DNA from: Caldilineaceae bacterium
GTDB taxonomy: Bacteria > Chloroflexota > Anaerolineae > Caldilineales > Caldilineaceae
Length of the DNA: 34,478 nucleotides
Direction of reading: 5' to 3'
NCBI GenBank assembly: GCA_023384455.1
Contig: JAHDWH010000046.1
Coordinates: forward strand, 1 to 34,478
Shown here: positions 1 to 19,508 of the stretch, in pieces
Layout of the letters: each line of letters opens with the position of its first letter
Numbering within the stretch: position 1 is the stretch's first letter
Notes under the pieces: generated by a model
Database searches by the model: none
What the model was told of the DNA's origin: nothing
Seen by the model: the letters and a program-made list of their open reading frames with translations, nothing else
Position numbers and translations under genes: made by a program

Positions 1-58
1 ACCCCTTCACCCCTGTCACCCCTTCACCCCTTCACCCCTTCACCCCTTCACCCCTTCA
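1..58. repeat. 8-bp tandem repeat (CCCCTTCA)n
   Basis: The first 58 bases are a near-perfect tandem array of CCCCTTCA, with one irregular unit near base 13. It runs into the stop codon of the RraA-like gene, whose TGA (56-58, complement) is built from the last unit. The array may extend beyond the window edge. It looks like a slippage-prone microsatellite; no function is implied. Confidence 0.85.
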
Positions 59-739
59 TCTTTCGCGTGCGGCTTCCCCCTTTTGGGTTCGCGCTGTCCG
101 CATCCGGGCCACAGAGAAGTCGGGCGCGGCGTAGGAATCGAAGATGGCCTGCTCGTTGGCCCGCACCTCCCCGGCCAGGCGCAGGACATCCGCGGCGTCG
201 GCCACGGGGATGCGCACACAGCCGTCCCCGTCGGCCACCAGCAGGTCGCCGGGGCGGACGCGTAGCTGGCAGAGGGTGAGGGGCGCGCCGATGCGGGTAG
301 CCTGGAAGACGCCGTGGCCGGGGACTGTGCCCCAGGCCCAGACGGGCAGCCCCACCTGGCGAATCCCGGCCAGGTCGCGGATGGTGCCGTCCACCAGTAC
401 ACCGACCACCCCCAGTCGCTTGTGCAGCCGGGCCATCCCATCCCCAAAGCTGGCCCCCCGCCCCGGTCGCGAATCCACATCCTTCAACACCGCCACCGTC
501 GGCCCCGGCTGGGATTCCAGATAGGCGTAGTAGTCCAGCCAGTCCAGGCCGGGGGAATCGGCGTCGTTGGTGGTCACTTCCACCGTCACCGCATAGCCGA
601 CGACGCTGCCCAACTCCGGCAGCAGACAGCGCAAACGGTGATCCGTGTACTCCTCGTTGGGCAGGCCATTCTTCAACACCAGCGCGTTGAAGAGGGTGGC
701 GGTGTCGTATTGGGCCAGGGCGGTGATGATTTGTTGCAT
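56..739 (-). CDS. RraA-like aldolase/demethylmenaquinone methyltransferase-family protein
   Basis: The 227-residue protein belongs to the RraA / 4-hydroxy-4-methyl-2-oxoglutarate aldolase family (older name: demethylmenaquinone methyltransferase-like). Members act as class II, divalent-metal-dependent aldolases or decarboxylases on small oxo-acids, or regulate RNase E. The family signature is visible as G117-T-I-R-D at 117-122, where Arg121 and Asp122 match the substrate- and metal-binding pair. A Gly/Asp-rich loop lies near 93-101. The ATG at 739 was chosen because the family-like sequence MQQIITAL starts there and an AAGGA-type ribosome site lies 11 bases upstream; the longer open frame to 913 is composed of unrelated sequence. 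The first 55 residues are nearly repeated in the truncated copy at 1502-1675. With the enolase-superfamily genes nearby, an aldolase role in sugar-acid breakdown is plausible but not shown. Cytoplasmic. Confidence 0.85.
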   Translation of the reverse strand: MQQIITALAQYDTATLFNALVLKNGLPNEEYTDHRLRCLLPELGSVVGYAVTVEVTTNDADSPGLDWLDYYAYLESQPGPTVAVLKDVDSRPGRGASFGDGMARLHKRLGVVGVLVDGTIRDLAGIRQVGLPVWAWGTVPGHGVFQATRIGAPLTLCQLRVRPGDLLVADGDGCVRIPVADAADVLRLAGEVRANEQAIFDSYAAPDFSVARMRTARTQKGEAARER

Positions 740-798: not shown

Positions 799-1497
799 TC
801 AGAGAACGGATTGCTCGCCATCGCCCAGGAGTTGCAGTTGGGGACGGTAGAAGACGGGCAGATGGCCCGCGTCCACGTCCTGCTGCATGTGAATCTCGAT
901 GCGTGCCAGCCAATCCGCCAACGAATGGGTCGCGGGCAGGGCAGCCGTAGCGTAGTAGGCGAGGACGCCCCGGCGCTGGGCCGCATCACCCGGCGGCAGA
1001 TTGTAGTTGTGGCCTTTGCAGGTCAGCTCCGCGCCGGGCTGGGTACGCAGCACAACTGCATTGGTGTTGACCGGCACACGGCCAGCCAGCAGATTCGAGT
1101 GTCAGAGGTCGGGCAGGAGGGTGAGCCGTACCCCGGCGGGCAAATCCAGGGCGGCGAAGAAATCGTCCCAGAGCAGGTGATAGTCGTCGCTGGTGTCGCC
1201 GGTATCGCGCAACTCAAGACCGGGACGGGCCGTCTCTGCCGTCTCGCCGACGAAGTAGCCGTGGCCGCTGACGTGGACAAAGAGCGAACCGGCTTGCCAG
1301 TCGTCCATACGGCGGCGGGCCGCGGCCAGGAAAGCCAGCACCAGCACACGATCCAACTGGCCGTGCAGGGAGAAAATGCGGTCCGCGGGGAAGCCCCGGG
1401 ACAGCAGAGCCTGGGTCATGGCGCGCTGGTCGTTGTGCATGGCGGGTTCATTGGGCGGGGGTGCGGCGATGAGGAGGGTGAGGTTGTTGGGGTTCAT
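799..1497 (-). CDS. Caspase-like (C14-type) protein with in-frame TGA at the catalytic Cys position
   Basis: Two open segments, 1497-1105 and 1101-799, lie in the same frame and are separated by a single TGA (1104-1102). Read through, they give a 232-codon product. Residues 73-82 carry VHVSGHGYFV, the catalytic His loop (His79) of caspase/metacaspase folds. A DDYHLLWDDF segment (104-113) and a hydrophobic strand LTLLPDL (125-131) follow. The TGA is codon 132, followed by H-S-N. This aligns with the D-x-C-H-S-G motif of metacaspases, so the TGA falls on the nucleophile Cys, 53 residues after His79. The downstream part (VNTNAVVLRT, 142-151) resembles the next core strand. Other genes here end in ordinary TGA stops, so the whole code is not reassigned. 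Readings: selenocysteine, a point nonsense mutation (TGC or TGT to TGA), or a sequence error. The gene starts 4 bases after the stop of the truncated rraA copy, with a GGGGA-type site, so translation may be coupled. Confidence 0.7.
1069..1104 (-). promoter_or_regulatory. Candidate SECIS-like hairpin downstream of the in-frame TGA
   Basis: Reading the minus strand, the TGA (1104-1102) is followed by 14 nt and then a hairpin at 1087-1069. The arms GGCTGGC and GCCGGTC form seven pairs, two of them G-U, around the 5-nt loop CGTGT. The loop starts 21 nt after the TGA and has a G at its second position. This fits the general description of bacterial SECIS elements: a short stem-loop inside the coding region, roughly 16-37 nt after UGA, with an early loop G. 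GC-rich DNA forms such hairpins by chance, so this is a candidate only. Confidence 0.3.
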
Positions 1498-1501
1498 GGG
1501 C

Positions 1502-1675
1502 TTATCCCCGCACTTCCACGATCAGCGCACAGTCCACGACACTGCCCAACTCTGGCAGCAGGCAGCGCAGACGGTGATCCGTATATTCCTCGTTGGGCAG
1601 GCCATTTTTCAGTACCAGCGCGTTGAAAACGGTGGCGGTGTCGTACTGGGACAGGGCTGTGATGATTTTTTGCAT
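1502..1675 (-). pseudogene. Truncated second copy of the RraA-like gene (5' end)
   Basis: This 57-codon open frame repeats the N-terminus of the RraA-like protein at 56-739: 48 of the first 55 residues are identical (MQKIITAL versus MQQIITAL at the start). The copy also keeps the upstream AAGGAAACC ribosome-site region, so the duplication includes the 5' leader. Similarity ends after VEV, where the copy reads RG and then TAA (1504-1502), losing the whole catalytic RD region. The stop lies 4 bases before the start of the caspase-like gene. The fragment may still be translated and could serve as a leader that couples translation into the caspase-like gene, but as an aldolase it is dead. Confidence 0.85.
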
Positions 1676-1818
1676 TGGGCGGGGTTTCCTTTGGCCAATT
1701 GCTTCTTCACATCCCGCCACCAGCCGTCGTCCTGTGCTTTTGGCCTTGCAAACTGACGGTCAGGCCGATGCCAAAGATGCCTATGCTGGTGCGGGAAATG
1801 GGCGGTTGGGATGCGCCG

Positions 1819-18470: not shown

Positions 18471-18652
18471 GGTTGTCGATTGGCTTTGCCGGTTGAGCCT
18501 GGGCCACTGCGACGGCTTCATCCATTGCTTGTGGGTTCGCACAATCGATTGCAGAATGGAATACCCTGGGCTATAGTTATTCCGCCAGTTGCTGGATACT
18601 GTAAGTACCTTACCAGCGAACTTCTTGTTTTTTGTGCAAGAAATGAGAAATT

Positions 18653-18721
18653 GTTGTATACACGGATGGAAAGGAACACAGATCAGAAAAATCCGTGTTC
18701 CTTTCCATCCGTGTATACAAC
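18653..18721. repeat. 27-bp perfect inverted repeat (large hairpin)
   Basis: Arms 18653-18679 and 18695-18721 are exact reverse complements, beginning GTTGTATACACGGATGG, with a 15-nt loop. After one mismatch, three more pairs extend it inward. It lies 44 bases upstream of the TPR-Arr start codon, so it would be in that gene's leader or promoter region. The arms contain the ACGGAT motif of the dispersed intergenic repeats seen elsewhere in the window. The 417-bp gap 18348-18764 otherwise holds only the typA terminator and a small 8-bp hairpin near 18380-18405. Confidence 0.9.
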
Positions 18722-18764
18722 CCTCTTTGGCTCTGGCTTTGCCAGGTTAGGAGACAAGACAATT

Positions 18765-19508
18765 ATGGAATTCAACCCCAATAACAATGTTGTCAAGCTC
18801 TGTCTGCAAGGTATGGGCATGGAAGAAAAAGGCCAACCTGAAGAAGCAAGTAACCTCTTTCTTCAAGCCTGGAACGAAGCGACAAATGACTCTGAGAAAT
18901 TTATTTCAGCCCATTACGTAGCTCGCCATCAAAAAGATGTTTCCGACAAATTAAGATGGCTGGAAATGGCTTTGCAGTGTGCGTTAAGAATAGATGACGA
19001 CACCGTCAGGAGTGCGTTCCCTTCTCTCTATGCAAACATTGCCAAGTGTTATGAGAACCTGGGCGAACCTGACAAAGCAAAAAAGAATACTGAATTAGCG
19101 ACTTCGTTTAGGGAAAGGCCTTCCGACAAAGGCCCCTTCTATCACGGGACGCGAGCAGATTTGCAGGTTGGCGATCTGCTGACAGCCGGGGGCAACTCGA
19201 ACTATAAACCCGAACTCAAAATGAATCACATCTACTTCACCGCCCTTGTCAACAGCGCGGGGCTGGCTGCTGCACTGGCAAAAGGCGATGGACCTGAACG
19301 CGTCTATATCGTTGAACCGACAGGGAGTTTTGAAAATGACCCGAATGTGACAGACAAAAAGTTTCCGGGCAACCCGACACGCTCCTATCGCTCCCAAGCA
19401 CCCTTGAAAATCGTTGGCGAAGCATCAGATTGGGTAAGACAGACACCTGAGCAACTACAGCAATGGCGTGAAAGGTTGGACAATAACAAAGGAGAAATCA
19501 TCAATTAA
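18765..19508 (+). CDS. arr: TPR-Arr fusion: rifampin ADP-ribosyltransferase-like protein
   Basis: A 247-residue protein. Residues 1-115 are helical with TPR-like repeats (LCLQGMGMEEKGQPEEASNL, then YANIAKCYENLGEPDKAKKN). Residues 120-225 match Arr, which transfers ADP-ribose from NAD+ to rifamycins. The catalytic triad of Arr is present with the same spacing as His19, Tyr49 and Asp84 of the mycobacterial enzyme: His127 in FYHGT, Tyr157 in IYFTA and Asp192 in FENDPN. The family hallmark KFPGNPTRSYRS follows (199-210). Start at 18765 has AGGAG 11 bases upstream. Arr alone is about 140 residues, so the N-terminal domain is an addition that may bind a protein partner. The gene sits between typA and a copied typA 3' end, so it is an insertion. 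It may confer rifamycin resistance or modify another target; that is not shown here. Confidence 0.88.
   Translation: MEFNPNNNVVKLCLQGMGMEEKGQPEEASNLFLQAWNEATNDSEKFISAHYVARHQKDVSDKLRWLEMALQCALRIDDDTVRSAFPSLYANIAKCYENLGEPDKAKKNTELATSFRERPSDKGPFYHGTRADLQVGDLLTAGGNSNYKPELKMNHIYFTALVNSAGLAAALAKGDGPERVYIVEPTGSFENDPNVTDKKFPGNPTRSYRSQAPLKIVGEASDWVRQTPEQLQQWRERLDNNKGEIIN

Follow-up and report, generated by a model that had tools for sequence, protein, structure and literature searches.

A predicted selenoprotein family of Chloroflexota with selenocysteine at the nucleophile position of a metacaspase-like fold

Introduction

Can a caspase-like gene be functional when a TGA codon stands exactly where its catalytic cysteine should be encoded? 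This question is raised by a gene on the minus strand of contig JAHDWH010000046.1 from a Caldilineaceae bacterium (GenBank assembly GCA_023384455.1; Chloroflexota), the whole 34,478 nucleotides of which were analysed and are termed the window (contig C146). A sequence-only reading had noticed two same-frame segments separated by the TGA and proposed a selenocysteine (Sec)-containing caspase-like protease, with a nonsense mutation from TGC or TGT to TGA as the plain alternative. Upon re-reading, the frame runs from 1497 to 799 through an ATG, 131 codons, the TGA at 1104-1102, 100 sense codons and a terminal TGA at 801-799; the two segments share a frame as described, and the downstream part is indeed open, but over 100 sense codons rather than 99. 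In the translated protein, His79 within VSGHGYF and residue 132 within LPDL-U-HSN (U, Sec) are 53 residues apart, the same distance as first noted. The gene and its homologs are termed Sec-caspase here. A conserved UGA at the nucleophile position, selection beyond it, a covarying hairpin of the Sec insertion sequence (SECIS) type, Sec machinery in the genome and kinship with metacaspases together make it very probable that Sec-caspases are a selenoprotein family with Sec inserted at codon 132, much as the sequence-only reading had suggested.

Results

Searching the read-through protein against 100 genomes, its own included, gave matches in seven. Five of them have TGA at the aligned codon (the source genome, G017 with two copies, G097, G075 and G025), the copy of G004 is cut off by the end of its contig ahead of the codon, and G076 encodes an ordinary Cys caspase; G017 is a bin from Caldilineaceae, the family of the source genome itself. 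An alignment search of genomes of the class matched 14 of 396 and added six genomes with the TGA (G230, G145, G154, G218, G189 and G172), the remainder being decayed fragments (G100 and G169), distant Cys caspases (G006 and G048) and four genomes already found. At the phylum level, 3/400 genomes matched, namely the source genome, one distant Cys caspase and one chance match. Left out of the TGA counts were G004 (L008), the fragments of G100 (L041) and G169 (L040) in which the codon is absent, the distant Cys caspases of G076, G006, G048 and G474, and the chance match of G468 (L051), which lies in another frame of a gene that we take to be of the FtsH type. The two decayed fragments are located at G100:C67 and G169:C294; that of G100 has lost its middle together with the Sec codon, and an apparent CHAT-type gene start is seen by eye just downstream of it.

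TGA occupies codon 132 in 12/12 gene copies that reach this codon, from 11 genomes of five families, and no further in-frame stop is found in the aligned part of these copies. The frame is unbroken in nine of the 12, all with the TGA. The G189 copy lacks its start and loses the frame after about position 171, whereas the frame is broken before the TGA codon in G172 and after it in G075; accordingly, the alignment rows of G189, G075 (first part) and G172 (second half) are incomplete. The other rows share 40% to 65% protein identity with the window protein, and eight columns of the 12-row alignment are invariant (P129, D130, Sec132, N135, L136, R140, P154 and G155). As G097 and G075 are closely related, the 12 copies are not 12 independent events. 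No Cys version of codon 132 was found in the close family among the genomes searched, where Cys homologs are distant caspases only; the sole Cys matches in the 396 class and 400 phylum genomes were three such caspases (E-values 1.4e-4 to 9.8e-4), in searches that scored at most seven candidates per genome and whose absences are thus not exhaustive. Scanning 10 genomes of the family of G230 and 20 of the order of G145 gave no new members, and no Sec-caspase match was found in the viral contigs, plasmids and phages searched. Against a collection of assembled genome contigs the single read-through protein had no match, and the alignment retrieved three loci, which are again both G017 copies and the G025 copy.

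Because 11 separate assemblies share the TGA, a base error behind it is very unlikely. The nonsense mutation considered by the sequence-only reading is likewise contradicted by the TGA in 12/12 copies, and a lone mutation, base error or pseudogene was rejected on this count. That partial or frame-broken copies occur in G189, G172 and G075, next to the decayed fragments of G100 and G169, does speak for a pseudogene; against this stand the same-codon TGA in 12 copies from 11 assemblies, the selection after the TGA and the covarying hairpin described below, which leave nonsense mutation, sequencing error or pseudogene a negligible probability. Genome-wide recoding of TGA is unsupported, as TGA ends 10 of 20 hand-picked long open reading frames (ORFs) of the window.

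Nonsynonymous (dN) and synonymous (dS) substitution rates were computed for 11 chosen diverged pairs of the 66 possible. The dN values are 0.16 to 0.60 before the TGA and 0.16 to 0.54 after it, versus dS values of 0.47 to 2.02 and 0.70 to 1.80, respectively; dN is lower than dS in each of the 11 pairs on both sides. Selection is similar on the gene halves before and after the TGA. In the closely related G097 and G075, dN is 0.045 and dS 0.022 over the 27 codons compared downstream of the TGA, which are too few for a verdict.

RNAalifold applied to the 12 sequences yielded one stem of 7 bp with a 5-nt loop that starts 21 nt after the UGA. This stem is the top 7-bp hairpin within the stretch scanned. 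Its partners pair in 81/84 cells (96.4%), versus at most 48.8% once they are slid by 1 to 3 columns. Synonymous codon shuffling within each gene never reached 81 pairs (0/5000; mean 61.2, maximum 72). The shuffle removes relatedness from the null, whereas the slid-column control keeps it. When the letters of the 3' side were redealt, the observed pairing was reached in 0/500 cases and the number of pairs with two-sided changes in 175/500. One pair joins the third positions of two codons and is paired in 12/12 as C-G, G-C, A-U, G-U or U-G; another pair switches a single time, from G-C to A-U. Near the TGA, conservation of third positions is not raised (0.71 versus 0.70 elsewhere), and our argument thus builds on covariation and codon shuffling.

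The bacterial SECIS (bSECIS) model in PMC13188914 has a loop of 3-9 nt, a stem of 4-16 bp, a spacing of 16-37 nt and an energy of at most -7.5 kcal/mol, and the first two loop nucleotides include a G that is mostly followed by G or U. Within all these limits fall 11/12 hairpins, that of the window included. Free folding of 48 nt predicted the stem-loop in 8/12. The loop sits on an Arg codon, which is CGT in 9/12 and CGG in 3/12 while the commonest Arg codon in these genes is CGC, a usage that fits the G[G|U] of the published model.

Sec machinery was surveyed in 12 genomes, namely the 11 with a TGA copy and G004, together with 14 control genomes. The source genome contains a tRNA-Sec (66.9 bits, anticodon TCA), SelA (567 bits), SelB (304 bits) and SelD (339 bits), the set of genes that the sequence-only reading had proposed to look for. 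Across the 12 genomes, tRNA-Sec was found in 10, SelA in 11, and SelB and SelD in all 12, versus 5, 1, 2 and 2 of the 14 controls over the respective cut-offs; ARAGORN agrees with all 10 tRNA-Sec calls. G097 has a second tRNA-Sec match over the cut-off (G097:C32:19097-19178, 50.1 bits) besides the one on C1. SelB is over the cut-off in 88/100 relatives; the Sec trait is thus widespread among them and is not enough by itself to single out the Sec-caspase gene. The top-scoring SelD has one in-frame TGA in 11/12 genomes, all except G075; that of the source genome (L077, G000:C69:3633-4625) reads MVACAGUASKLPPG followed by a hairpin and is itself predicted to be a selenoprotein. A SelD hairpin loop of GGUCGUG is seen in four of the nine SelD copies with a located Sec codon (G000, G004, G017 and G025) and not in the other five, the codon being unlocated in five further copies; we regard this similarity only as colour.

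Alignment of the family against the sequences of the PDB gave 14 matches at E-values of at most 1, the top 11 of which are 10 named metacaspases and GSU0716. The profile matches include 4f6o (7.5e-5), 8a53 (1.1e-4), 3bij (GSU0716, 1.2e-4) and 6w8s (3e-4). In the alignments with the first three of these, SGHG falls on SGHG, and Sec132 aligns with Cys in 4f6o and 3bij and with Ala in 8a53, which presumably is a mutated nucleophile. When the family profile was compared by hhalign with that of five Cys caspases from relatives, the match was 97.9% over 191 columns and likewise placed Sec on Cys. Pfam C14 matches 2/12 members at E-values of at most 0.1 (best 0.0024). The AlphaFold2 model from four sequences has a predicted local distance difference test (pLDDT) score of 68 and a predicted template modelling (TM) score of 0.73, the other four models having pLDDT of 40 to 62. 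With this model, Foldseek retrieved 92 PDB chains at E-values of at most 0.001; the 50 listed of these comprise legumain-type enzymes, GSU0716, metacaspase 4, MALT1 and caspases (caspase-4, -11 and -3), at TM scores of about 0.4 to 0.6. Residues 80-106, 132-139 and 151-162 are poorly predicted, so that the model says nothing of the pocket. Taken together, the Sec-caspase family is almost certainly a relative of the metacaspases.

At the position of the metacaspase catalytic His, 9 of 13 copies have His79, three have Asp (G017a, G154 and G004) and one has Asn (G025). G017a and G154 are placed apart in a small tree of partly weak support, and G004, which was not part of it, shares 82% identity with the window protein across 95 residues; on these grounds His79 seems to have been lost more than once. 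Cys160 is kept in 11/11 rows that reach it. Two readings follow: a selenolate that works without the His, or a protein that serves as a redox device. Of the term caspase-like protease used in the sequence-only reading, the first half stands, given the profile matches and the caspases and MALT1 among the Foldseek matches, whereas protease remains putative; the His pointed out there is present in 9/13 copies only.

The features of the locus are listed in Table 1. The source genome is a bin of 6.77 Mb in 448 contigs with a completeness of 98.6% and a contamination of 6.1%. Two copies of an RraA-like 5' end, at 575-757 and 1511-1694, are 86% identical and flank the Sec-caspase gene, an arrangement reminiscent of an insertion that duplicated its site.

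Table 1. Features of the Sec-caspase locus in the window
Feature	Position	Strand	Description
Sec-caspase gene	799..1497	-	232 codons plus terminal TGA; codon 132 is TGA, predicted to be read as Sec; similar purifying selection on both halves
In-frame TGA (Sec132)	1102..1104	-	Metacaspase nucleophile position; TGA in 12/12 copies reaching the codon
SECIS-type hairpin	1069..1087	-	7-bp stem, 5-nt loop CGUGU, loop start 21 nt after UGA
His79 codon	1261..1263	-	Position of metacaspase catalytic His; His 9, Asp 3, Asn 1 of 13 copies
Cys160 codon	1018..1020	-	Cys in 11/11 aligned rows reaching it; possible partner of Sec132
Terminal TGA	799..801	-	Normal stop; following 60 bases fold weakly (-4.3 kcal/mol)
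Truncated RraA-like 5' copy	1501..1694	-	Directly upstream; 4 nt separate the end of its short ORF from the Sec-caspase ATG
RraA-like gene	56..739	-	Downstream of the Sec-caspase gene; probable ATG start

CHAT, nSTAND1, WD40 or C14 genes are near 6/13 loci, the scan of neighbours covering all loci but those of G025 and G218; CHAT proteins adjoin some Sec-caspase members. PADLOC gave no match for the Sec-caspase protein of the window. At the second copy of G017, the gene after the Sec-caspase (L047 6723-7706) matches PARG_cat_C (E-value 1.8e-12), of the ADP-ribose glycohydrolase fold. Elsewhere in the window, an ORF of 342 residues at 18480-19508 has a C-terminal domain similar to rifampin ADP-ribosyltransferase (Arr-ms, E-value 3.3e-47) and a weak TPR match, and the contig end (1-60) is a tandem repeat of the type CCCCTTCA.

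Discussion

These results enable us to propose that Sec-caspases are a new selenoprotein family of caspase-fold peptidases with a Sec nucleophile and a role in conflict systems, a reading to which, as a whole, we assign a probability of roughly 0.7. The protein would be a stand-alone caspase fold of about 232 residues with Sec in place of the catalytic Cys. During translation, the hairpin beginning 14 nt downstream of the UGA may recruit SelB and Sec-tRNA-Sec, and codon 132 would be read as Sec. The selenolate most likely attacks the peptide bond as Cys does in metacaspases; a selenolate is already ionised at neutral pH, and the family could thus cope without the His by which ordinary caspases activate their thiol. 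We lean slightly toward a peptidase. Whether it acts as an effector of conflict systems is evenly balanced in our view, with the gene context suggesting an effector or amplifier beside CHAT, nSTAND1 and WD40 conflict proteins. Only tentatively do we extend this to a natural Sec peptidase of a new catalytic type, its selenolate sufficiently reactive to act with or without His, in which ready oxidation involving Cys160 might yield an executioner of conflict or cell death that is gated by selenium and by redox state.

Several observations weigh against this proposal. The G097 hairpin misses the energy limit (-5.8 kcal/mol) while keeping to the other constraints, and the free 48-nt fold gives other structures in G230, G218 and G172 and a shortened stem-loop in G097. 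G154 and G218 yielded no tRNA-Sec, and G218, which is 70% complete, no SelA; moreover, the tRNA-Sec model is the least specific and weakest of the four markers, passed by 5/14 controls. The Sec machinery of the source genome is on contigs other than that of the gene, in a 448-contig bin with 6.1% contamination. The window protein scores 13.1 bits versus a Pfam C14 cut-off of 21.4, and the catalytic His is replaced by Asp in three and Asn in one of the 13 copies. Partial or broken frames in 3/12 copies (G189, G172 and G075) indicate a gene that decays readily. Finally, the count behind the link to conflict genes lacks a background rate, and the operon seen in the window itself is instead of the Mza type.

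Among the rival explanations, one keeps the selenoprotein and replaces its chemistry. Sec132 would be oxidised by peroxide and resolved by Cys160 as a selenenylsulfide, and the caspase-fold protein would sense or remove oxidants and report to the conflict module. The invariance of Cys160 (11/11 rows) and the variable His favour such a redox device, and subtilisin made artificially with Sec reportedly behaves as a peroxidase. Most known selenoproteins also look like redox proteins (PMC13188914), which is a further point against a peptidase. However, the His is kept in 9/13 copies, the window protein is devoid of a CxxU or UxxC motif, and Cys160 lies in a badly predicted region from which its distance to Sec is not readable; we consider a redox device, whether as an oxidant-consuming enzyme or as a sensor for the conflict module, less likely than a peptidase but a serious alternative. 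The other rival does without Sec: either a near-cognate tRNA (Trp or Cys) would decode the conserved UGA, or the two halves would be translated separately. A GTG that might start the second half stands 9 codons after the TGA in 6/12 copies, that of the window among them, whereas the other six have GCG there, and separate translation from this internal GTG was rejected on that account. A single frame through 9/12 copies, a hairpin fitting the bSECIS model in 11/12 and SelB in 12/12 genomes make both versions highly improbable. The preferred reading remains a Sec-nucleophile peptidase.

The selenoproteins known to date are for the most part regarded as redox proteins, and the known caspase-like enzymes have Cys; here, a relative of the latter was found only in the Sec form. 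A Sec-caspase would link selenium with an enzyme of the cell-death type in a Chloroflexota family. It raises the questions of what a hydrolytic nucleophile gains from selenium, whether selenium can relax the Cys-His dyad, and whether the availability of selenium or the presence of oxidants gates the cell-death proteases of bacteria. The family is easily overlooked because Sec-blind gene finders would split the gene into two truncated ORFs, as the ORF list of the window does. In the titles and abstract beginnings of the open-access papers listed by the searches, no selenocysteine caspase or metacaspase is described. Table 1 of PMC13188914, a 2026 table of 119 prokaryotic selenoprotein families and subfamilies, has no row for caspase, CHAT or metacaspase; the word caspase is absent from the main text of PMC13188914, PMC12013277, PMC9312934, PMC2398784 and PMC1794560, and the matching passages of PMC8004986 and PMC10531186 are unrelated to any selenocysteine caspase.

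Compared with known systems, the Sec-caspase shares with the metacaspases and other C14 proteins (4f6o, 8a53, 6w8s and GSU0716, 3bij) the caspase fold, SGHG and the D-x-[nucleophile]-H-S motif, and differs from them in having Sec for Cys (UGA in 12/12), a variable His and a length of about 232 residues. NF047832 (EACC1-associated caspase) is the sole NCBIfam model matched, by 3/12 members at E-values of at most 0.1 (best 1.8e-4); the window protein reaches 12.8 bits versus a cut-off of 140, and the Sec-caspase protein is one domain long. The CHAT domain PF12770 is weakly matched by 3/12 members at the same threshold (best 0.0039), the window protein not among them. With the known prokaryotic selenoproteins (PMC13188914) it has in common the in-frame UGA, the bSECIS hairpin and SelA, SelB, SelC and SelD in the genome. 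The trypsin-like and MucD-type selenoproteins predicted in PMC2398784 are likewise protease-like with a predicted Sec, but they are of serine-protease types, with a redox function suggested for the trypsin-like protein and a CxxU motif for MucD.
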